Shown here: positions 35,000 to 45,024 of the stretch, piece by piece
Layout of the letters: every line of letters begins with the position of its first letter
How positions within the stretch are numbered: position 1 is the stretch's first letter
Source of the DNA: Bacillota bacterium
GTDB lineage: Bacteria; Bacillota; Clostridia; Saccharofermentanales; DTU023
Direction of reading: 5' to 3'
Assembly: GCA_029570375.1 (NCBI GenBank)
Contig: JAKPXB010000003.1
Coordinates: 1 to 50,544, forward strand
DNA length: 50,544 nt
The notes under the pieces: model-generated
The model's input: the letters and a program-made list of their open reading frames with translations, nothing else
Told to the model about the DNA's origin: nothing
Database searches by the model: none
Translations under genes and position numbers: made by a program

Positions 35000-35793
35000 A
35001 TAAATTATGGAAGACAAAAACCAGCGTGGTCAATCCTGAGAGCGAATCGCCCGCGCCACAGGATCTCATTCTGCAGGTTTCAGACCTTGTGGTCAGTTAC
35101 GGTTCCATTCAGGTCCTGCATGGAGTTTCACTCGATATACGCCGAGGCGAACTCGTCAGTATCTGCGGCGTGAACGGGGCCGGCAAATCGACTATTCTTA
35201 AATCGATCGCCGGTATTTTAAAGCCTCGCTCCGGATCTGTCTGTTTCAAAAATATGGACGTCACCGGCAAGAAACCAGAACAGCTCCACAAACTCGGCAT
35301 CTCGCTCGTCCCTGAAGGCCGGGATATTTTCCCGACGCTGACCGTCGAAGAAAATCTCCGGATCGGTTCTTTCGGAAGACATGAACCGAAGCGTTACGCG
35401 GAGGATCTTGAAGACTTTTTCCATCTCTTTCCCATTTTGAAAGAGCGTTACCATCAGGCGGGGGGATTGCTCTCCGGCGGTGAACAGCAGATGCTGGCGA
35501 TCGCAAGAGGCCTTATTTCACACCCCGACCTCCTGATGATGGACGAGCCTTCTCTCGGGTTGTCGCCAAACAGGGTTGATCAGATTTTCGACCTCATTTT
35601 GGAACTGAAATCGCGCGGCATCACAATCCTTCTCGTCGAGCAAAACGCCAGCCGTGCTCTGAGAATTGCCGATCGCACCTACCTGTTCTCCAACGGCAGA
35701 ATCGAGTACGCGGGGAAACCGGACGAGATGGGCAGTGAAGTCGATATAACCTCCGTTTACCTCGGAGCAAAAGAAGGAGGAATGGCTTCATGA
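34996..35793 (+). CDS. livF: Liv-type ABC transporter ATPase (LivF-like)
   Basis: The 265-residue ATPase has a 25-residue N-terminal extension, then the LivF core: Walker A GVNGAGKST, LVPEGRDIFPTLTVEENL, signature LLSGGEQQMLAIARGL, Walker B LLMMDEPSLGLSP and switch VEQNASRAL. These are LivF/UrtE-specific forms. It forms the ATPase pair with the LivG-like protein. Start and stop both overlap neighbours by 4 bases (ATGA). Confidence 0.93.
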   Translation: MNKLWKTKTSVVNPESESPAPQDLILQVSDLVVSYGSIQVLHGVSLDIRRGELVSICGVNGAGKSTILKSIAGILKPRSGSVCFKNMDVTGKKPEQLHKLGISLVPEGRDIFPTLTVEENLRIGSFGRHEPKRYAEDLEDFFHLFPILKERYHQAGGLLSGGEQQMLAIARGLISHPDLLMMDEPSLGLSPNRVDQIFDLILELKSRGITILLVEQNASRALRIADRTYLFSNGRIEYAGKPDEMGSEVDITSVYLGAKEGGMAS

Positions 35794-36692
35794 ATACGGA
35801 TATTCTGATTGAATTTGCCATCAATGTCCTCAGCATGGGCAGCTTATACGCCCTGATCGCGATGGGCCTCTGCTTTGTCTTCGGCATTTGCCGGCTTATT
35901 AACTTCGCGCACGGCGAGTTTATCACGGTGAGCGCTTATACGCTCTATTACCTTGGCACCTTTACGAACATTCCGTGGCCGTTCGTCTTCCTGCTGGTGG
36001 TGATTGTCGGCCTTGTCGTCGGGTATTTGAGTGAATTGATCGCGTACCGTCCTTTTCGCGGCCGGTCGCTCGACGCGCTACTCGTCACATCATTTGCGAT
36101 CAGTATTATTCTGCAGCGTTTATTCCAGCTCGGTATCAGCCCGCGATCCCGTGCCGTGCCTGTCCCCGCCTATTTCAATATGAACGTGACGCTCTTCGGC
36201 GTGATCACGCCGCTTCGCAATCTGCTGCTGGTCGGCACAACGGTCATTCTGCTGGTTGTTGTGATGCTCATCATGAAATACACACCGCTCGGTATCGCGA
36301 TGCGCGGCGCGTCAGAGGATTTTGTCACAGCCCGCCTGATGGGTGTGCCCGCCAACCTTGTCATCTCTGTCGCTTTTATCATCAGCGGGCTCCTCGCCGG
36401 TGTCGTCGCCGTGTTCTGGTCCGCTCGCACAGGATCGGTGGAACCGCTGATGGGCGCGACTCCCCTGCTTATAGGGTTTATTTCCATTGTCATCGGCGGT
36501 ATGCACTCGCTGCCGGGCTCGGTTGTCGGCGGATATGTCTACGCGCTGATCGCCAACTTGCTGTCGTTGACACTGCCTTCCACTTTGCTGTCATTCCGTG
36601 ACGCGATCATGTTTGTCATTGTCATCTCATTTCTCATTTTGAAACCGGAAGGACTGCTGCGCGGAAGCTATCAGGAGGAGCGTGTAGGATGA
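35790..36692 (+). CDS. livH: Liv-type ABC transporter permease (LivH-like)
   Basis: The 300-residue permease has about eight helices. MGSLYALIAMGLCFVFGICRLINFAHGEFI near the N-terminus is the LivH/UrtB hallmark (cited in parts: GSLYALIAMG and INFAHGEF). The docking loop is GIAMRGASEDFVTARLMGV, followed by FIISGLLAGVVAVFW and the C-terminal GGMHSLPGSVVGG. It ends with a basic tail and overlaps the LivM-like gene by 4 bases. Confidence 0.93.
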   Translation: MNTDILIEFAINVLSMGSLYALIAMGLCFVFGICRLINFAHGEFITVSAYTLYYLGTFTNIPWPFVFLLVVIVGLVVGYLSELIAYRPFRGRSLDALLVTSFAISIILQRLFQLGISPRSRAVPVPAYFNMNVTLFGVITPLRNLLLVGTTVILLVVVMLIMKYTPLGIAMRGASEDFVTARLMGVPANLVISVAFIISGLLAGVVAVFWSARTGSVEPLMGATPLLIGFISIVIGGMHSLPGSVVGGYVYALIANLLSLTLPSTLLSFRDAIMFVIVISFLILKPEGLLRGSYQEERVG

Positions 36693-37828
36693 GTACTCAC
36701 CGTCACTTTTTATCGAATTGTGAAGCCGCTCCGGCGGCGCGTCCGCAAAGCACAAGTTCCTACTTCAGCTTTGCAAACAAATGGTCTACAGTCGTGCTGC
36801 TGATCTCCGGGCTGGTGGCTATCGGAGCCTTTATATGGTGGCTCAATATCCCTTTTATTGAAGATATTTTTACATCAAGCGCGATCACGCTGACGATGGT
36901 GCTCGGCTTCCAGCTGTATATGGGTAATTCGGGTATTTTGAACTGGAGTTACATCGGATATGCCGGTATCGGCGCCTTCGCTTCCGCTATATTTTCCATG
37001 GAACCGGCGGTAAAAACGATGCAGATACCGACCATGTATCCTTTTTTGATCAAACTCCATCTCCCCTTTTCCCTCGCCCTGATCGCCGGCGCCCTGACGG
37101 CCATGGCTGTGGCCGCGCTCGTCGCATGGCCGCTCATGCGTCTCTCCGATTCGGTAGGCGCCATCACGCAGTTTGCCTTACTGATCGTGTTCAATGTCGT
37201 GCTGTCGCAGTGGTCGCAAGTTACAAACGGCCCGCGCACATTCACACTGGGCGGTCTGCGCTATACCACACTATGGGTCGCCCTCGGCGTCGCCTCGGTT
37301 GTGCTCGCGGCTGTTTTCTATTTCAAAGAGTCGCCCGTCGGTCTGAAGCTTCGCGCCACGCGCGATGACAGGCACGCCGCCCGCTCAAGCGGCATCAACC
37401 TTGTCTCGACCCGCTACATCGGATACATCACAAGCGCCTTTATCGGCGGGCTTGCCGGGGGATTGTTTTCCCACTACATCCTTTCCATCACTGCCGCCTC
37501 CTTTTACCTGCACGATCTTTTCGTCATTCTTTCCATGCTGGTGATCGGCGGCTCCATGTCAGTATCCGGAGCTTTCTTCGGAACTCTGCTGGTCACGCTT
37601 GCCCGTCAGGGGTTGAGGCAGGTAGAATTGGGATTGACGAGAAGCGGTTTTGAGGCATCCGGCGCAACTGAAATTGTTTTGGCGATTCTGATGATCGTCT
37701 TCTTAATCTGGAGACCGAACGGTATTACAGGCGGCGAAGAACTGACCTGGAACAGTATCCGGCGCCGCTTGAAATCCTTCACCGGCAGAAAAAAACAATC
37801 CGCAAAGTCTCAGCAACAGGAGGATTAG
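36689..37828 (+). CDS. livM: Liv-type ABC transporter permease (LivM-like)
   Basis: The 379-residue permease has a hydrophilic N-terminus of about 30 residues before helix 1, then about nine to ten helices. Family landmarks are LNWSYIGYAGIGAFASAIFS, the docking loop GLKLRATRDDRHAARSSGIN and LFVILSMLVIGGSMSVSGAFFGTLL. The C-terminus is basic and Gln-rich. It completes the permease pair and is followed after 2 bases by the amidase gene. Confidence 0.92.
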   Translation: MSTHRHFLSNCEAAPAARPQSTSSYFSFANKWSTVVLLISGLVAIGAFIWWLNIPFIEDIFTSSAITLTMVLGFQLYMGNSGILNWSYIGYAGIGAFASAIFSMEPAVKTMQIPTMYPFLIKLHLPFSLALIAGALTAMAVAALVAWPLMRLSDSVGAITQFALLIVFNVVLSQWSQVTNGPRTFTLGGLRYTTLWVALGVASVVLAAVFYFKESPVGLKLRATRDDRHAARSSGINLVSTRYIGYITSAFIGGLAGGLFSHYILSITAASFYLHDLFVILSMLVIGGSMSVSGAFFGTLLVTLARQGLRQVELGLTRSGFEASGATEIVLAILMIVFLIWRPNGITGGEELTWNSIRRRLKSFTGRKKQSAKSQQQED

Positions 37829-37830
37829 AA

Positions 37831-38742
37831 ATGAAAACTCTCGAAAACGACAAGGTGTTCTACGCCTTTTCACCGGACATGACGCCACAGTTAACTGTCA
37901 AACAGGGCGAACTCTTTCTGCTTGAGACGCGCGACTGTTTCGCCAATCAGCTGTGTTCCAATGAGGATACGCTGGAAGAGCTCGATTGGGACAGGATCAA
38001 CCCCGCCACCGGCCCGGTCGCCATTGAAGGCGTAAAAGCGGGTGATATGGTTCGGATTGATATCAAGAAAATTGAACTGAGCGGCCGTTCGGTAATGACA
38101 ACCATCCCGGGAGCCGGTGCAATCCAGGGGATCAGCCAGTTTTCGACGCGGGTCTTTGACAACAGCCGCGGTACACTTTTAGTTGAAACGGCTAAAGGCA
38201 CGCTTGAACTCCCCTTGAAGCCGATGATCGGAGTGATCGGCCTCGCCCCTCCGGAGGGGAGCATTCCGAATGGAACTCCTGGGAAACACGGCGGCAATAT
38301 GGACTGCAAACTGATCGGCGAGAACACCTCCCTTTATTTGCGGGCATCTGTTGATGGAGGGCTGTTCGGGTGCGGCGATGTGCACGCATTGATGGGCGAC
38401 GGGGAAGTCCTCGTCTGCGGGGCCGAAACTCCCGCCAAAGTGACACTTGCCGCGTCGGTTGTTGAAGCAGCGCCACTCCCTGTGCCGTTTCTGGAAACAG
38501 ACTCTTTATTTGTGGCTATCGCGACCGCCAGGTCGGCAGAGGAAGCCTTTAAAACGGCCATCGACCACATGTTCTCCTTCCTGATAGAAACCGCCGGCTT
38601 GGAAGAAGGGGACGCCGGGCGTCTGATGACACTGGTCGGAGAGCTGAAATTCTGCCAGGTCGTCGATCCTGAGGTCACCATACGCTTTGAATTCCCGAAG
38701 TCTGTTCTGGCGGAACTCGGATTCCCGGGGATTACTCAGTAA
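37831..38742 (+). CDS. acetamidase/formamidase family hydrolase
   Basis: The 303-residue enzyme belongs to the FmdA/AmdA family, which hydrolyses formamide, acetamide or related short amides to ammonia and acid. Landmarks in order: VKQGELFLLETRDCFANQL, GPVAIEGVKAGDMVRIDI, MIGVIGLAPPEG, the metal-site region NGTPGKHGGNMDCKLIGENTSLYL, and LFGCGDVHALMGDGE. The length is normal for the short bacterial form. It begins 2 bases after the permease stop with RBS CAGGAGG, so it belongs to the same operon. This link suggests that the transporter imports its substrate. Downstream is a good terminator. Confidence 0.9.
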   Translation: MKTLENDKVFYAFSPDMTPQLTVKQGELFLLETRDCFANQLCSNEDTLEELDWDRINPATGPVAIEGVKAGDMVRIDIKKIELSGRSVMTTIPGAGAIQGISQFSTRVFDNSRGTLLVETAKGTLELPLKPMIGVIGLAPPEGSIPNGTPGKHGGNMDCKLIGENTSLYLRASVDGGLFGCGDVHALMGDGEVLVCGAETPAKVTLAASVVEAAPLPVPFLETDSLFVAIATARSAEEAFKTAIDHMFSFLIETAGLEEGDAGRLMTLVGELKFCQVVDPEVTIRFEFPKSVLAELGFPGITQ

Positions 38743-38799
38743 CCGCTTATCGGATGGTGATTCACCTCATTTGAACAGCCGGCGGGTACACCGGCAAAT

Positions 38800-38846
38800 A
38801 AGGGTGTCTCTCCACACTTTTCAAGTGTGAGGAGATACCCTTTTAG
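38800..38846 (+). terminator. intrinsic terminator of the Liv/amidase operon
   Basis: AAGGGTGTCTCTCCACACTT pairs with AAGTGTGAGGAGATACCCTT (a near-perfect 20-base stem with a 3-base loop), running into a T-rich end (TTTTAGTTTT). It isolates the operon from sigI. Confidence 0.8.
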
Positions 38847-38944
38847 TTTTCCGCTCTTTTGAAACGAAAATCCTTATTTTTCTCTCCCTGTCCCGCTTTT
38901 CCGGAGAGCCCCGCGTATTCTATAGTAGGAGCAGGAGGTAGCCC

Positions 38945-39655
38945 ATGCGCAGGGAACAGGATATCGCTGAGCGCGTCTGCGCCGCGAGGCAGGATGACGA
39001 GCTCGCAGAAGAATTGATCAGCCAGTATCTCCCCTTTATCCGCGCTGAGGCGGCTCGCTACCTTGGGCGCATCTGCACGGAACAGGATGACGAACTGAGT
39101 ATCGCCATGATCGCGTTTCACGACGCAATGAAGAGCTATCAACGTGAGCGTGGCGCCTTTATTCCCTACGCTTCGCTCGTCATCCGAAACAGACTGACCG
39201 ATCACGGCCGAAAAGAACAAAGACACCGGACGACCGTTTCTCTGGATGCCGCTCAGCAGGATGATGACCTTCCCCTCTCTGACGTTATCGCATCCGAAGG
39301 ACAGGATCCTTTACAAAACGAAAATCTAAAGGCCGCCATCGCAGAAATCATTGAGTTTAAGAAACAGCTGAGCGATTACAATATCACGCTCCTGGAGCTG
39401 ACGGAACAGACGCCGAAGCAGCAGCGCAGCATGGATATATGCAAAAAAGCCCTCCTCTACATTCTCGGAAACGGGGAGTTATTCCACCGGATTATCGAGA
39501 CAGGGAAACTACCCCTGAAAGAGATAGCCGGCTGCGCAGGATTACCGCGAAAAACGCTCGAGCGTCACCGCAAGTACCTGATTGGAATCATGATCATCTT
39601 CAGCAACGGTTACACTTTGATGCGCGGCCATCTGAAAGAAATGTTAAGGCGCTAG
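38945..39655 (+). CDS. sigI: RNA polymerase sigma factor SigI
   Basis: The 236-residue sigma-70 family protein is of the SigI type. Its region 2 spans about residues 22-90 (ELISQYLPFIRAEAARYLGR, DDELSIAMIAFHDAMKSYQ, ERGAFIPYASLVIRNRLTDH), and the SigI-type C-terminal region includes LPLKEIAGCAGLPRKTLERHRKYL, a helix-turn-helix that reads the promoter. RBS AGGAGG is 6 bases before the ATG. The next gene encodes its anti-sigma factor, 14 bases downstream, matching the sigI-rsgI arrangement of Bacillus and clostridia. SigI factors answer envelope, heat or extracellular-polymer signals relayed by RsgI. Confidence 0.9.
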   Translation: MRREQDIAERVCAARQDDELAEELISQYLPFIRAEAARYLGRICTEQDDELSIAMIAFHDAMKSYQRERGAFIPYASLVIRNRLTDHGRKEQRHRTTVSLDAAQQDDDLPLSDVIASEGQDPLQNENLKAAIAEIIEFKKQLSDYNITLLELTEQTPKQQRSMDICKKALLYILGNGELFHRIIETGKLPLKEIAGCAGLPRKTLERHRKYLIGIMIIFSNGYTLMRGHLKEMLRR

Positions 39656-39669
39656 AGGTTAGAAGCAAT

Positions 39670-40464
39670 ATGAACTACATCGTGTTGGAAACTCAAAAAG
39701 AATCCGCTGTCGTCCTGGATGAGGAAGGCCGCTTTCTTAAAGTGCTGAACGACGGATACACCGTCGGGCAGACAGTCCCGAAGGTCACGCCCTGCCACGC
39801 TTTCACCGAGGGGAGCGTACCGAAAAGAGTGTGGCTTCAGCGCGTATCGGCCGCCGCCGCGTGTTTTATCATTGCCCTTTTCGCCTATTTCCAGATATTC
39901 GAACGTCCGATCGCGGCCATGCGTCTGAAAATCAACCCCGCGTTCCGCATCGAATGGAACCGCCGCGAAAAAGTGACGGGCATCCGGGCAGAAAATGAGG
40001 ACGCGGTTTCAATCCTTGAAAACTATTCAGGCAAACAAAAAAGCCCCTCGACGGTTACGCGGGAACTGATTGAGTTATCCGCGCGACACGGTTATCTCAA
40101 GGAACACGGTTCTGTCACAATTCAGATGGGGTTCGGTGACCGCGATTCCACCCGGAGCGTATGGGATGATCTTGAAAAGAACCTAAAAGAACAAACCGCT
40201 CATTTGGGTATGCTCACCATCCATATGGAAATGAGCGGAGGACAAAACGCGCCGGTACCAACGACGCTGTTAACATCGGCAAGTGAGCCTCCGGAATCCG
40301 GCTCTTCCGTGGAAACTTCCAGCCCTACTGCAGATCCTGGTACTTCGAATACCGTTCATCCGACTGACGATGATGACGACGATGATGATGACGACGACGA
40401 AGAAGACAACGACCATGATCCGGGTGATGATCCGGATGACGACACGGATGACGAAGATGCCTGA
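39670..40464 (+). CDS. rsgI: RsgI-type anti-sigma factor with poly-aspartate tail
   Basis: I start at the ATG at 39670, where the RsgI N-terminal domain begins (MNYIVLETQKESAVVLDEEGRF cited as MNYIVLETQK and VVLDEEGRF). GAGG lies upstream; the longer open frame overlaps sigI and is not used. The 264-residue protein has a cytoplasmic SigI-binding domain (1-52), one helix (about 58-77), then the RsgI periplasmic-type domain containing KINPAF. Its Asn89-Pro90 bond matches the self-cleavage site known in the family. After a Ser/Thr/Pro linker the extracytoplasmic end (about 230-264) is nearly all Asp/Glu, including eleven consecutive Asp. Other RsgIs end in sugar-binding or similar sensor modules. 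An acidic tail suggests metal-ion or cationic-surface sensing, which is inference. Confidence 0.85.
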   Translation: MNYIVLETQKESAVVLDEEGRFLKVLNDGYTVGQTVPKVTPCHAFTEGSVPKRVWLQRVSAAAACFIIALFAYFQIFERPIAAMRLKINPAFRIEWNRREKVTGIRAENEDAVSILENYSGKQKSPSTVTRELIELSARHGYLKEHGSVTIQMGFGDRDSTRSVWDDLEKNLKEQTAHLGMLTIHMEMSGGQNAPVPTTLLTSASEPPESGSSVETSSPTADPGTSNTVHPTDDDDDDDDDDDEEDNDHDPGDDPDDDTDDEDA

Positions 40465-40615
40465 CGCGAACACGTTGGCAGCGATTTCCAGCAGAACAGC
40501 GCGTCTTTACGATTCATGCGGCCCCGGTTTTCCGAATGTTCACCCGCATTCTTTAACAGAAAGATAACTTGCCGGGCGGCATGCGCGGCCCTCCTTGAAG
40601 GAAAGAGGTGATCAC

Positions 40616-41329
40616 ATGAAACGAATGAAGTTAATAATCGCACTGGTAATTGTCGGGTTAATTTTCAGCGCAGCGATATCTTACGGCACGACTAACGCGA
40701 AGGAGATTACCGGGGAACAGGCTCTCTCTATTGCTTTGCAGCACCAGGGGCTTCAGCCCGATCAGGTAACAGGCTGCGAGATCGAGTACGAAAGAGAGAA
40801 CGGGATGAATGTCTATGATATTGAGTTTTTCTGCGAGAACGTGAAATACGATCTCGACATCCACGCAGAGACCGGTGAAGTGCTGGATGTTGAAACGGAA
40901 CGGCACATTCCCCGCCCTTCCGATCCCGCCGCCTCGGACGTAACGGCGCCTGCCACGGAAGAACCAGCCGGTTCAATCAGTGAAGCAGAAGCACTGCGGA
41001 TCGCTATGGAACATCTCAAGGTTTCACCCGATCAGCTGTCGATGATTGATATCGAGCGTGAGATGGAAAACGGAAAAAAGATCTACGAAGTTGAGTTTGT
41101 TTTGGAAGGAACAGAGTACGAATTTGATATTGATGCCATATCCGGAAGAATTCTGGAAATCACAACCGAGACCTATTTAGGCCAAAGTGAAGATACGACA
41201 GCTTTTGACGACGATGATGACGATGGCGACGACGACGAAGACCCGGATGACGACGAAGACCCGGATGATGACGATGATCCTGACGACGATGAAGACACGG
41301 ATGACCACGAAGACGACGACAAAGACTGA
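40616..41329 (+). CDS. exported double-PepSY protein with acidic tail
   Basis: I start at the ATG at 40616, served by AGAGGTG 6 bases upstream. The 237-residue protein has a signal or anchor helix (about residues 5-22) and two PepSY-type domains: residues 30-102 (EQALSIALQHQGLQPDQVTGC, YDIEFFCENVKYDLDIHAETGE) and about 125-195 (EAEALRIAMEHLKVSPDQLS, YEVEFVLEGTEYEFDIDAISGR). A Pro/Ala/Thr linker joins them. Residues 200-237 are an Asp-rich tail with repeating DPDDDE units, like the tail of the neighbouring RsgI. PepSY domains often modulate proteases or signalling. The gene lies 151 bases after rsgI on the same strand and is probably part of, or regulated by, the SigI unit. Confidence 0.8.
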   Translation: MKRMKLIIALVIVGLIFSAAISYGTTNAKEITGEQALSIALQHQGLQPDQVTGCEIEYERENGMNVYDIEFFCENVKYDLDIHAETGEVLDVETERHIPRPSDPAASDVTAPATEEPAGSISEAEALRIAMEHLKVSPDQLSMIDIEREMENGKKIYEVEFVLEGTEYEFDIDAISGRILEITTETYLGQSEDTTAFDDDDDDGDDDEDPDDDEDPDDDDDPDDDEDTDDHEDDDKD

Positions 41330-41347
41330 GGTCCGGGCAGGACACAA

Positions 41348-41397
41348 AAGGACGGTTCTTTCACCCGGTTGAAAAACCGGACGAAAGAACCGTCCTT
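41348..41397. terminator. bidirectional terminator between PepSY and DUF2284 genes
   Basis: A perfect 15-base stem, AAGGACGGTTCTTTC / GAAAGAACCGTCCTT, encloses a second inner stem (CCGGTT/AACCGG). A-rich and T-containing flanks on both sides fit termination of the two convergent transcripts. Confidence 0.75.
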
Positions 41398-41420
41398 GCT
41401 GCTTCTCTGTTACTTTCCCC

Positions 41421-41987
41421 TTACGGTTTCAATAGCCCGCCAATCAGAAAAAGGTGCTGCGGCAGATGGCCTTCCTTCTCCCAGATCAGCTTCTCGCCAA
41501 AGTATTTTTCGACGGCTTGCACAACATCGCCGCCCAGCGCCTCGATGGAATAGCGGCATAGATGCGGGTTGCGGCAGGGCAGATTCTGAAGGCGGGTGCA
41601 TACAACGCAGATTTCGCATTTGCCGGCTGAAAGTGCCATGCTGCCGGGGTGCTCTGCTTCAAGCGCCAGCAGTTCCATGAGAAGTGCATGTTTGAATGGC
41701 GCGAGCAGTTTGTTGCAAACCATCGCCACTTCCGCTTTCTGGAACGTTTTCTCCCTCAGATCCTGAGGGACGATCACCTTTTTACCGATGAGAAGCAACG
41801 ATTTATATGATTTCCAGATGTCTTCAGACGAAAAATCGTAAGGCGGACAGGACCAGGTTTTGCCATACGTCGGACAAGCCTGACAGCAGCGCAGGAACCT
41901 GGGTACATCAACACAGGTTTCCATGAACTCCCGTACCGAAACATCTTTCCGAAATGATTCAACAGAACATCCACTCATATCAATCAT
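41421..41987 (-). CDS. DUF2284 cysteine-rich predicted metal-binding protein
   Basis: The 188-residue cytoplasmic protein carries many cysteines in the DUF2284 pattern: CCQACPTYGKTWSCPPY near residues 34-50, and KCEICVVCTRLQNLPCRNPHLCRYSIEALGGD in the second half (seen in parts as CEICVVC and LPCRNPHLC). The family is predicted to bind a metal or iron-sulfur cluster. Its role is not established. The start is ATG at 41987 with only a weak RBS (AAAGAAAT); the ATG three codons later is an alternative. It diverges from cooS, so a link to CO metabolism is possible but only by position. Confidence 0.82.
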   Translation of the reverse strand: MIDMSGCSVESFRKDVSVREFMETCVDVPRFLRCCQACPTYGKTWSCPPYDFSSEDIWKSYKSLLLIGKKVIVPQDLREKTFQKAEVAMVCNKLLAPFKHALLMELLALEAEHPGSMALSAGKCEICVVCTRLQNLPCRNPHLCRYSIEALGGDVVQAVEKYFGEKLIWEKEGHLPQHLFLIGGLLKP

Positions 41988-42233: not shown

Positions 42234-44117
42234 ATGGAAGAAAAAAAATTTAGCGAGCGTTCCATTTGGAAGGACGCTCAGGCGATGTTGGAAAAAGCTG
42301 ATAAGGAGGGCGTGCAAACCGTTTGGGACCGCAGAGAACTGCAAAACCCAGGCTGTACTTTCTGCCAGGGCGGCACGTCCTGCCACATATGCAGTATGGG
42401 ACCCTGCCGTGTCATAGAGGGCAAAGTAGGTAAATGGCAGTACGGCGTCTGCGGAGCAGACGTACATACCATTGTCGCGCGCAATTTCGGACGGTTTGTC
42501 GCCGCAGGCAGCGCGAGCCACTCTGACCATGGCCGCGACCTGGTCGAGACATTATCAGAGGTATTATCCGGCCAGGCGCCCGGATACAGTATCAGGGATG
42601 AGGGAAAGCTGCGGGCTCTGGCGGCGGAGCTGGAGATTGAAGGCGCTCAGGACAGGCCTCTCTATGATGTGGCCGCGGATCTCGTTGACGAATTTTATGA
42701 CAACTTCTCTTCCCGCCGCAAGGAGGTCAGCTTTGTTAAGCGTGTCCCTGAACAGCGGAGAGCGATCTGGAAGAAATATGGCATGACACCCCGCGGGATT
42801 GACAGAGAGATCACTGAAATGATGCACCGCACGCACATGGGTGTGGATAACGATTACGCCAGCCTGCTCCTTCACGCGGCCCGCACGTGCCTCGGGGATG
42901 GCTGGGGCGGCTCAATGATCGGCACGGAGATCTCCGATGTGCTGTTCGGAACGCCGGAACCGCGCATGTCGAAGGTCAACCTGGGCGTTCTCAAAGAAGA
43001 CCACGTCAACGTCCTTGTACACGGACATAACCCTGTCGTCTCCGAAATGGTTCTGGCAGCCTCCCGCGACGAGGATCTTCTGAAAGAAGCGGTCTCCGCC
43101 GGCGCCAAAGGGATCAATGTCGTCGGACTTTGCTGTACCGGTAATGAACTCCTGATGCGCCAGGGTATTCCCCTGGCGGGCAACCATCTCATGACGGAAC
43201 TCGTCATTGTCACAGGTGCCGCCGATGCCGTCGTTGTCGATTACCAGTGCATCATGCCCAGCCTGGCGAGAATTGCGCAGTGCTATCACACCGCGTTCTT
43301 CACCACATCTTCAAAGGGTCGTTTCCCGGAGGCCACCCATGTGCCGGTTGAACCCGGGAATGCCCGCGAACAGTGCCGCCTGATTGTCAGGAGCGCGGTA
43401 CAGGCGTATACGAAACGTGATCCCCGCCGCGTCCTTATCCCGGACAAACCGGTTGAAATGATGTCGGGCTTTTCCGTCGAGGCGATCACCAAAGCGCTGG
43501 GAGGATCCCTGCAGCCCCTGCTGGATGCTATCGTATCGGGCCACATAAAAGGGATCGTCGGTGTTGTAGGCTGCAACAACCCGAAGATTAAACACGACTC
43601 CGCCAATGTCGCGCTTCTGGAAGCTTTAATCAGGAGAGATATCCTCGTGGTCGTGACCGGCTGTGTGACATCCGCTGCCGCCAAAGCCGGCCTGCTGGTG
43701 CCGGCGGCAGCCAGAGAGAAAGCCGGCGCCGACCTAGCCGCCGTTTGTGAATCACTCGGCGTACCGCCTGTGCTGCACATGGGAAGCTGTGTCGATAACT
43801 CGAGAATTATCCATTTCGCGGCGCTGGCGGCAAAAGCGCTTGGTGTCGATATCTCCGATCTTCCCGTCTGCGCATCCTCTCCCGAATGGTATTCCGAGAA
43901 AGCGGCGGCCATCGGGCTTTACGCCGTCACCAGCGGTATCCCTACACACCTCGGTCATCCTCCGATGATTCTGGGGAGCAGCAAAGTAACGCAGCTCGCC
44001 GTTTCCGGTCTTCAGGATCTGGTAGGCGCGCACTTCTTAGTCGAAGGAGATATGGAAAAAGCCGCCGATCAGCTTGAAGGCATTATCCTCGAGAGAAGGG
44101 AGAAGTTAGGTATTTAG
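42234..44117 (+). CDS. cooS: anaerobic carbon monoxide dehydrogenase, catalytic subunit CooS
   Basis: The 627-residue Ni-Fe-S enzyme oxidises CO to CO2 reversibly. Iron-sulfur ligands near the N-terminus are C41, C44, C50, C53, C58 and C73. C50, C53, C58 and C73 match the B-cluster. The intersubunit D-cluster pair is spaced CX2C (C41, C44), and a Ser replaces the usual Cys at position 49; ordinary CooS uses CX7C. The C-cluster ligands are intact: His in LVHGHNPVVSEM, and Cys in VGLCCTGNELL, VDYQCIMPSLA, VVGCNNPKIK, VVTGCVTSAAAK and MGSCVDNSRI. The catalytic lysine is in SPEWYSEKAAAIG. RBS GGGAGG is strong. Only cooC follows; no ferredoxin, hydrogenase or acetyl-CoA synthase is nearby. Confidence 0.96.
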   Translation: MEEKKFSERSIWKDAQAMLEKADKEGVQTVWDRRELQNPGCTFCQGGTSCHICSMGPCRVIEGKVGKWQYGVCGADVHTIVARNFGRFVAAGSASHSDHGRDLVETLSEVLSGQAPGYSIRDEGKLRALAAELEIEGAQDRPLYDVAADLVDEFYDNFSSRRKEVSFVKRVPEQRRAIWKKYGMTPRGIDREITEMMHRTHMGVDNDYASLLLHAARTCLGDGWGGSMIGTEISDVLFGTPEPRMSKVNLGVLKEDHVNVLVHGHNPVVSEMVLAASRDEDLLKEAVSAGAKGINVVGLCCTGNELLMRQGIPLAGNHLMTELVIVTGAADAVVVDYQCIMPSLARIAQCYHTAFFTTSSKGRFPEATHVPVEPGNAREQCRLIVRSAVQAYTKRDPRRVLIPDKPVEMMSGFSVEAITKALGGSLQPLLDAIVSGHIKGIVGVVGCNNPKIKHDSANVALLEALIRRDILVVVTGCVTSAAAKAGLLVPAAAREKAGADLAAVCESLGVPPVLHMGSCVDNSRIIHFAALAAKALGVDISDLPVCASSPEWYSEKAAAIGLYAVTSGIPTHLGHPPMILGSSKVTQLAVSGLQDLVGAHFLVEGDMEKAADQLEGIILERREKLGI

Positions 44118-44238
44118 GATTCTCAGTGAGGCATGACACGCGCGGTATATCCGGAACAAGCCGCGCGCATACTGTTGTTAACACATAAACCGGCAGCCGG
44201 CGATCTATTCGCTATTATTGAAAAGTCGAGGAATAGCT

Positions 44239-45024
44239 ATGAAATACGCTGTTGCGGGAAAGGGAGGCAGCGGTAAAACGACCATTGCCGCCTGGCTTGG
44301 TGATTACCTGTCGCGCCGGGGAAAGAACGTATGGCTCATCGACGCCGACACCGCTCTGTCTCTTGGAATCAGCATGGGGCTGCAGCGCTCGGAACTGCCG
44401 ACGCCCCTTATACAGGAAAAGGAACTGATCAATGAACGCATCGGAGAAGGCCTGATATCGCTCTCCCCGGATGTAACGGATTTACCGGAACGCCTCGCTG
44501 TCGACATCCCCCTCGGGTGTTCAGAAGACAAACCATCGTGTGAAAATAAACGGGGAATGCTCCGGCTTTTAGTGATGGGGACAGTCGCTCAGGCGGGAGA
44601 AGGATGCGCCTGCCGACCGAACGCCCTTCTCAAAGCTGTACTGGCCCATTTATTGACAACCGAAGATGACGATGTAGTAGTAGATCTCGAAGCAGGTGTT
44701 GAGCATCTGGGAAGAGGGACAATCGAAGCTGTCGATACTCTCCTCATCGTCACGGAGCCAAGTATCCGGTCGCTGGAGACAGCCTGTTTTATTTCGAGGC
44801 TGGCGAAGGAACTTGGCCTTGAGAAGCAGCTTCTGATCATGAACCGCTTCTCCGAAGAGCAGGAGCTGCCAGAACCCTATGCGAGCACTCTGCCCGCCGT
44901 CCGTATAAAAGTACCTTGCATGGCCGGGTTGACAGAAAAGATGCTCGACAACCCGTCGGTTTTGAATCTGCCCGAGCAGGAAAAAATAGACGAAATCATC
45001 GCGCAGATCGTGCGCAGCCGCTAA
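44239..45024 (+). CDS. cooC: CO dehydrogenase nickel-insertion ATPase CooC
   Basis: I start at the ATG at 44239 (MKYAVAGKGGSGKTT) with GAGG 7 bases upstream. The 261-residue protein is a MinD/SIMIBI-class ATPase. The deviant P-loop GKGGSGKTT is at about residues 7-15, and switch I is IDADTALSLG. The CAC motif at about 118-120 gives the CxC nickel/zinc site expected of CooC, and the Walker B-like DLEAGVEHLGRG follows. It inserts nickel into the C-cluster of CooS, the gene 121 bases upstream. The last residues look regular and the gene is intact. Confidence 0.93.
   Translation: MKYAVAGKGGSGKTTIAAWLGDYLSRRGKNVWLIDADTALSLGISMGLQRSELPTPLIQEKELINERIGEGLISLSPDVTDLPERLAVDIPLGCSEDKPSCENKRGMLRLLVMGTVAQAGEGCACRPNALLKAVLAHLLTTEDDDVVVDLEAGVEHLGRGTIEAVDTLLIVTEPSIRSLETACFISRLAKELGLEKQLLIMNRFSEEQELPEPYASTLPAVRIKVPCMAGLTEKMLDNPSVLNLPEQEKIDEIIAQIVRSR

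Follow-up and report, generated by a model that had tools for sequence, protein, structure and literature searches.

How might a membrane-bound anti-sigma factor sense its surroundings through an outer part that ends in a run of aspartates, and why would the exported protein encoded next to it carry a tail of the same kind? This question is raised by a sigI-rsgI locus in a 50,544-nucleotide stretch of DNA (herein, the window) from a genome of 1.73 Mb whose assembly is about 96% complete. SigI and RsgI are known from cell wall stress in Bacillus subtilis and from cellulosome regulation. RsgI is reportedly cut constitutively in its SEAL domain into pieces that stay together, and the dissociation of these pieces, perhaps by force, is said to be the regulated step. 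In B. subtilis the sensor of RsgI is an extracellular disordered region that has been proposed to extend into the wall and find gaps there (PMC13059805), which makes incomplete the view, taken in a preliminary description of the locus, that the known RsgI sensors are often sugar-binding. Depletion of teichoic acid triggers SigI, the anionic teichoic acids probably keeping the anionic disordered domain out of wall pores (PMC13270295), and the genes under SigI include the wall genes lytE and mreBH among others (PMC10128001). A literature search found no paper treating RsgI and PepSY together, and no description of the arrangement considered here.

The locus belongs to a SigI clade of uncultured digester Clostridia and named strains (Merdimmobilis, Gemmiger, Olsenella, Atopococcus) in which the regulon appears to have one product type, a copy of the outer half of the sensor. 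Such a single-output system makes it directly testable what disordered RsgI ectodomains sense, provides the tail-bearing PepSY lipoproteins with a hypothesis of function, and yields a sharp, searchable promoter motif.

Organization of the unit

Two hairpins bracket three genes, sigI, rsgI and a gene for an exported double-PepSY protein (Table 1). The unit of these genes envisaged in the preliminary description is upheld, with the correction that the PepSY gene has a predicted sigmaI promoter of its own. A longer rsgI frame starting at 39439 was rejected in favor of the start at 39670, and the ATG at 40616 is the most likely start of the PepSY protein. Candidate sigma-70 promoters in the unit were set aside, as 2 matches were obtained where 2.2 are expected. 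Upstream (35790-38742), two membrane proteins like branched-chain amino acid/amide ABC permeases precede a short formamidase of the FmdA/AmdA type. Downstream, a DUF2284 predicted metal-binding protein (41421-41987, minus strand) adjoins an anaerobic CO dehydrogenase catalytic subunit (42234-44117, plus strand) and a CbiA/ParA-type ATPase that is possibly CooC-like (44218-45024, plus strand).

Table 1. Features of the sigI-rsgI-PepSY unit, in window coordinates.
Feature	Position	Strand	Details
Hairpin	38792..38852	+	-29.1 kcal/mol, z -6.8; probable terminator of the upstream formamidase-like gene, parting that gene from sigI
SigmaI-type promoter of sigI-rsgI	38891..38923	+	TCCCGCTTTT-N13-CGTATTCTAT; PWM 28.6; exact pattern match
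sigI, sigma-I factor, 236 aa	38945..39655	+	TIGR02895 2e-50, Sigma70_r2 8e-11
rsgI, membrane anti-sigma factor, 264 aa	39670..40464	+	RsgI_N and RsgI_M above cut-offs
SEAL (RsgI_M) domain of RsgI, aa 80-189	39907..40236	+	Predicted scissile Asn89-Pro90 at 39934-39939
Asp-rich tail of RsgI, aa 233-264	40366..40461	+	22 D and 3 E of 32 residues
Second sigmaI-type promoter, before PepSY gene	40522..40554	+	CCCCGGTTTT-N13-CGCATTCTTT; PWM 27.4; exact pattern match
Exported double-PepSY gene, 237 aa	40616..41329	+	Pfam PepSY 2e-23
PepSY domain 1	40706..40894	+	PF03413, 44 bits
PepSY domain 2	40976..41161	+	PF03413, 43 bits
Asp-rich tail of PepSY protein, aa 198-237	41207..41326	+	29 D and 4 E of 40 residues
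Strong hairpin at unit end, probable terminator	41336..41402	.	-38.6 kcal/mol (+), -39.5 kcal/mol (-), z about -8

The sigma factor and its anti-sigma factor

The sigma factor matches TIGR02895 across its full length and, because its score of 171 bits falls under the 185-bit equivalog cut-off of that model, it is classed from its sequence as a divergent member of the SigI family. RsgI is a member of the known anti-sigma family, with an N-terminal sigma-binding domain, one transmembrane helix (aa 52-78), a SEAL domain and the acidic tail, which takes the place of the carbohydrate-binding domain that Pfam did not find in its ectodomain. Its predicted model (pLDDT 89.7) superimposes on the SEAL domain of B. 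subtilis RsgI (8t9n) with a Z of 16.1 and an rmsd of 1.7 over 107 residues, and on the periplasmic domains of Clostridium thermocellum RsgI1, 2, 6 and 9 with Z of 9.7-12.0; the N-terminus of the model matches RsgI1-N (6ivs) with a Z of 6.3. Asn89-Pro90 is invariant in 29 aligned RsgI proteins, and the post-cleavage chains (chains B) of the autocleaved C. thermocellum structures begin at the position equivalent to Pro90. As modeled, the window RsgI keeps the Asn-Pro site and the fold of its B. subtilis counterpart, and by analogy with known RsgI proteins it would undergo autocleavage, dissociation and site-2 cleavage. A site-2 protease homolog is present in the genome (4e-53).

The double-PepSY product

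The PepSY protein starts with a signal or anchor helix that has no lipobox Cys, and its two PepSY domains are the sole ones in the 1.73-Mb genome. Its sequence matches PDB 9vy3_A (E 6e-7), a double-PepSY protein with eight entries, possibly LanPepSY. A single-sequence fold of the window protein (pLDDT 78) resembles YpmB, CD1622 and YpeB (Z 9.2-9.7); 9vy3_A is absent among the structural matches listed for this model, though it is found by the sequence search.

How this protein relates to other products of such loci became clear from a survey of the family, in which RsgI_M proteins occurred in 49 of 98 related genomes and were read in context. Nearly all family RsgI proteins with the sigma-binding N-terminus end in Asp-rich tails (DDSDYDDSDYDD or poly-Asp) unless a contig end truncates them. 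The product of a second gene, adjoining rsgI or located elsewhere, has a lipoprotein signal (e.g., VVGC), an RsgI_M that lacks the sigma-binding part, in many cases a single PepSY domain, and an Asp-rich tail. Because this is the usual makeup of the second gene, the PepSY and tail protein of the window, which has no SEAL domain of the kind present in most relatives' products, is on sequence grounds a reduced form of a common target type. Intermediates occur in two genomes (G045 and G053), in which rsgI is followed by a gene whose product combines one or two PepSY domains with a degraded RsgI_M. The suggestion that the PepSY protein is a partner or target of the system gains support, as most relatives fuse PepSY to an RsgI-type domain in a protein under apparent sigmaI control.

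The same survey turned up SEAL (RsgI_M) proteins that carry 2-4 PepSY domains and differ in their cytoplasmic N-terminus (L039, L042, L054, L059, L060 and L244, from G004, G007, G027, G031, G032 and G062, respectively), and at several of these loci the end of the upstream gene appears ECF-type sigma factor-like. They appear to represent a second SEAL-PepSY anti-sigma type in the window's family.

Distribution of the module

The SigI profile was run against named genomes, and the analysis kept the best 80 of the 463 relatives that it detected. Among these 80, Clostridiaceae-labelled MAGs are the closest kin of the window, and the further genera include Olsenella, Thermophilibacter, Faecalibacterium, Gemmiger, Merdimmobilis, Lachnoclostridium, Eisenbergiella and Atopococcus, together with Erysipelotrichia. 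An acidic-tailed RsgI followed by an adjacent target was seen at 53 of the 59 loci within the best 80 that had enough downstream sequence, and the module thus spans two phyla, Bacillota and Actinomycetota. The adjacent targets in named loci are exported, usually as lipoproteins, and have an autocleaving-type SEAL domain, often PepSY and usually an Asp-rich tail; many consist of SEAL and tail with no PepSY. Four of the six loci that have no adjacent target are kin of the window, and the targets of G001, G002, G009 and G018 lie elsewhere in their genomes. The other two are from Ruminococcus and show neither an Asp tail nor an adjacent target, and the promoter motif is missing as well. In Atopococcus tabaci there is a double-PepSY gene like that of the window, with its own sigmaI-type promoter and no long Asp tail. 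The SEAL Asn-Pro pair is invariant in 19 target lipoproteins, and the profile of these lipoproteins aligns with the RsgI structure 8t9n at 4e-6 and with cleaved RsgI chains that begin at that Pro. Among the carriers are both biogas-digester and gut bacteria. A phage origin was considered and set aside after a target protein had been compared with viral contigs in a single scan and no relative turned up.

The acidic tails

The preliminary description had pointed to Asp-rich tails on both RsgI and the PepSY protein. Both were confirmed, with the exact ends now given in Table 1, and such tails recur in close as well as distant relatives. Elsewhere in the window, whatever the frame, the richest 30-residue stretch contains 8 D, and a search of the 1.73-Mb genome for seven Asp codons in a row found them in this rsgI alone. 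Because GAT and GAC are irregularly mixed in the tail codons, the tails are not a slipped DNA repeat. Strong acidity of both tails was found in all 54 complete linked pairs of RsgI and target, from two phyla, where the net charge is at least -13 (median -38) for RsgI tails and at least -16 (median -40) for target tails, with the caveat that some target tails are short, or neutral across their last 40 residues. These figures bear on the proposal that the tails are neutral low-complexity expansions that have no function, which we regard as highly improbable. The fast turnover of the tail repeat sequence between lineages is what would be expected of neutral sequence, but neutrality accords poorly with the mixed codons, with the acidity of both partners in every pair and with the finding that strict repeats in the window's family are largely at these loci; nor was tail loss seen in many carriers that keep promoter and target.

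Within a locus the two tails match in flavor strongly relative to random partners (0 of 2000 permutations), but the excess is weak when judged against the nearest relative (p 0.09) and the match is mostly lineage-level; tail-flavor matching was accordingly dropped as proof of co-evolution. No Pfam match to TSP3 or a similar calcium-binding repeat was obtained for the tails of nine target proteins, and the idea that the tails are TSP3-type calcium repeats was rejected. Asp-rich tails are also seen elsewhere in the family. A metal/siderophore-type substrate-binding protein (L233:2378-4288 of G028; weak Peripla_BP_2 match) has a long DDWDDDDD tail and is unconnected to SigI, and PepSY proteins with poly-Asp tails occur at two loci where no SigI/RsgI was found (L245:1916-2938 of G061 and L246:2045-3608 of G044), with G044 having Asp-rich tails on two neighboring genes.

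SigmaI-type promoters and the regulon

Published sigmaI promoters have the elements ACCCCC/CGAA in Bacillales and CCCYYAAA-N13-14-CGWA for C. thermocellum SigI3 (PMC4711584). The site before sigI in the window, with its CGTA -10 element and spacing of 13, fits a putative autoregulated promoter of the SigI type. The consensus CCCCGSTTTT-N13-CGTAWYCTAT is shared by the DNA ahead of sigI and ahead of the target genes, unlinked ones included. Throughout the clade the -35 half, CCCCGSTTTT, has a T-run on this strand and hence an A-run on the other, which may serve as the A-tract expected next to the -35 element of SigI promoters. A matrix built from 24 relatives' sites with the window left out (lowest training score 25.1) recovered both window sites, and the next score in the window, over 101 kb of strand, was 8.9. 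For the window's genome the regulon was approached by pattern scans. The degenerate pattern gave two sites at 0 mismatches, none at 1-2 and twelve at three in the 1.73-Mb genome, compared with six at three mismatches for a reversed control; this pattern was composed after both sites had been seen, while the matrix excluded them.

The motif behaves in the same way in other genomes. Of the 32 exact sites in the window's family, 30 lie before sigI or before a target gene, and across 188 genomes of the order the sites are confined to module carriers with three exceptions. In the named loci a score of at least 10 was reached by 54 of 63 target genes; the controls gave 0 of 79 for rsgI starts and 30 of 800 for random stretches, some of which overlap true sites. 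In 30 further genomes 41 sites were found, nearly all before sigI or a SEAL lipoprotein target, and in Merdimmobilis there is such a site before an unlinked SEAL lipoprotein. The pattern scan of the window's genome revealed no transporter or metalloenzyme with the promoter. Taken as promoter predictions, these sites suggest that the wiring very probably holds, that the PepSY gene is not independent of SigI, and that sigmaI of this clade appears to have few targets beyond itself and these products. A larger regulon is possible, because in G053 a site of this type precedes a CAP/Ig-domain surface protein (L232:678-2342), a possible extra target from another family.

A possible homeostat and its alternatives

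Read together from the sequences, the tails, domains, conserved cleavage site and promoter wiring suggest a sigmaI/RsgI module with a private regulon of one product, and on balance it seems somewhat probable to us that sensor and product mirror each other as a homeostat. The RsgI ectodomain would consist of an autocleaving SEAL domain and then a long tail that is acidic and disordered. When this tail feels a change beyond the membrane, the cleaved ectodomain would be pulled away, and with the ectodomain gone a site-2 protease would cut RsgI in the membrane to free SigI. Freed SigI would then transcribe sigI-rsgI and the exported tailed protein, which is double PepSY and tail in the window and elsewhere a lipoprotein with SEAL, PepSY and tail. 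This product would supply the missing surface polyanion, together with cations held by its tail and PepSY domains, and the RsgI tail would be quieted. In other words, the polyanionic RsgI tail would serve as a gauge of the wall's polyanion or cation state, to which SigI would respond with a like-tailed surface protein. We infer polyanion or cation as the quantity sensed, which is the most likely of several readings, and negative feedback as the logic. That no tagA-type teichoic acid enzyme is found in the window's genome fits the polyanion reading, but its absence is shared by most relatives that have no module (the WecG/TagA family is over cut-off in 6 of 98 genomes of the order), and the presence of tagA was therefore discarded as non-discriminating. 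A bolder version must be put tentatively, since we find it rather doubtful: the acidic-tailed anti-sigma factor would gauge wall polyanion and a dedicated sigma factor would restore it with acidic-tailed copies of the ectodomain, a proteinaceous functional counterpart of teichoic acid that is widespread in Bacillota and Actinomycetota.

Of the signals proposed in the preliminary description, metals remain plausible by analogy, because double-PepSY proteins bind lanthanides, Ca2+ or uranyl, and mineral surfaces have gained no specific support. A metal module is a possible alternative, if a doubtful one, in which the RsgI tail, the target tail and the PepSY domains would bind a hard cation (Ca2+, Mg2+, Fe3+ or a lanthanide), occupancy of the RsgI tail would control SigI, and the product would buffer, store or sequester the metal. 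The closest solved relative of the double-PepSY protein, 9vy3_A, speaks for it, as do LanP, with two PepSY domains that bind lanthanides (Ln3+) and Ca2+ (PMC11845868), and UipA, whose tandem PepSY domains have a negatively charged face and bind uranyl (PMC8963506). PepSY proteins with poly-Asp that exist apart from SigI, the tail on a metal-type substrate-binding protein in one relative, and DSDYD repeats and a NNDGVTDYNDTDYG motif that look like Ca2+ loops point the same way, but Pfam finds no calcium-binding repeat in the tails and in the window's genome the promoter is not on any transporter or metalloenzyme.

The shared charge of sensor and product would also suit a decoy against cationic peptides or proteins, where a cationic antimicrobial would bind to the RsgI tail and pull on it, and SigI would then make a like-tailed surface protein that mops the agent up. 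The product is exported or lipid-anchored, a regulon of one product would be enough for a decoy, and a comparable logic is seen in the anti-sigma factor RsiV, which binds lysozyme (PMC5014341). We nevertheless judge a decoy unlikely, as the carriers include biogas-digester bacteria besides gut ones and a decoy would not account for the conservation of SEAL and PepSY in the product. The PepSY domain might instead be the active part, with the PepSY protein directly inhibiting a protease that acts on RsgI, or serving as a ligand of the RsgI ectodomain much as DbfQ does for the kinase DbfS, and with the tails merely tethering. PepSY proteins adjoin two-component sensors >60-fold above chance and DbfQ binds DbfS (PMC12714742), and SEAL-PepSY fusions occur in many relatives. 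Such a checkpoint seems to us quite unlikely: the many targets with SEAL and tail alone make PepSY optional and the tail the commoner element, and SEAL cleavage needs no site-1 protease.

Comparison with known systems

The module has one of its nearest likenesses in SigI-RsgI of B. subtilis, with which the window shares SigI, RsgI_N, the transmembrane helix, a SEAL domain with Asn-Pro, a disordered extracellular sensor region, a putative autoregulated promoter with a CGWA -10 element and a site-2 protease in the genome. It differs in that the targets of the window SigI seem limited to its own genes and a tailed mirror protein, and in that the RsgI tail is Asp-rich and has a partner protein with a like tail. 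In the SigI/RsgI biomass sensors of C. thermocellum, as here, the ectodomain of the sensor is similar to the part of the regulated products that does the binding, and the -10 CGWA and the spacing of 13-14 nt are also alike (PMC4711584). The window clade, however, has no carbohydrate-binding module and no glycosidase targets, and in place of the -35 half CCCYYAAA it has the T-run of CCCCGSTTTT.

LanPepSY (LanP) and UipA are likewise exported tandem PepSY proteins, with acidic metal-binding surfaces, a trait that is putative in the window protein, but they are not under an RsgI and are not known to have a comparable acidic tail. DbfQ-DbfRS provides a parallel of an exported PepSY protein encoded beside a transmembrane sensor and co-regulated with it, although that sensor is a histidine kinase and not an anti-sigma factor, and DbfQ has one PepSY domain and is predicted to be co-transcribed with the kinase. 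Relative to these systems, the novelty lies in the apparent regulon of one product, in a target whose SEAL domain, PepSY and acidic tail mirror the sensor, in a distribution that reaches across two phyla, and in a promoter specific to the clade.
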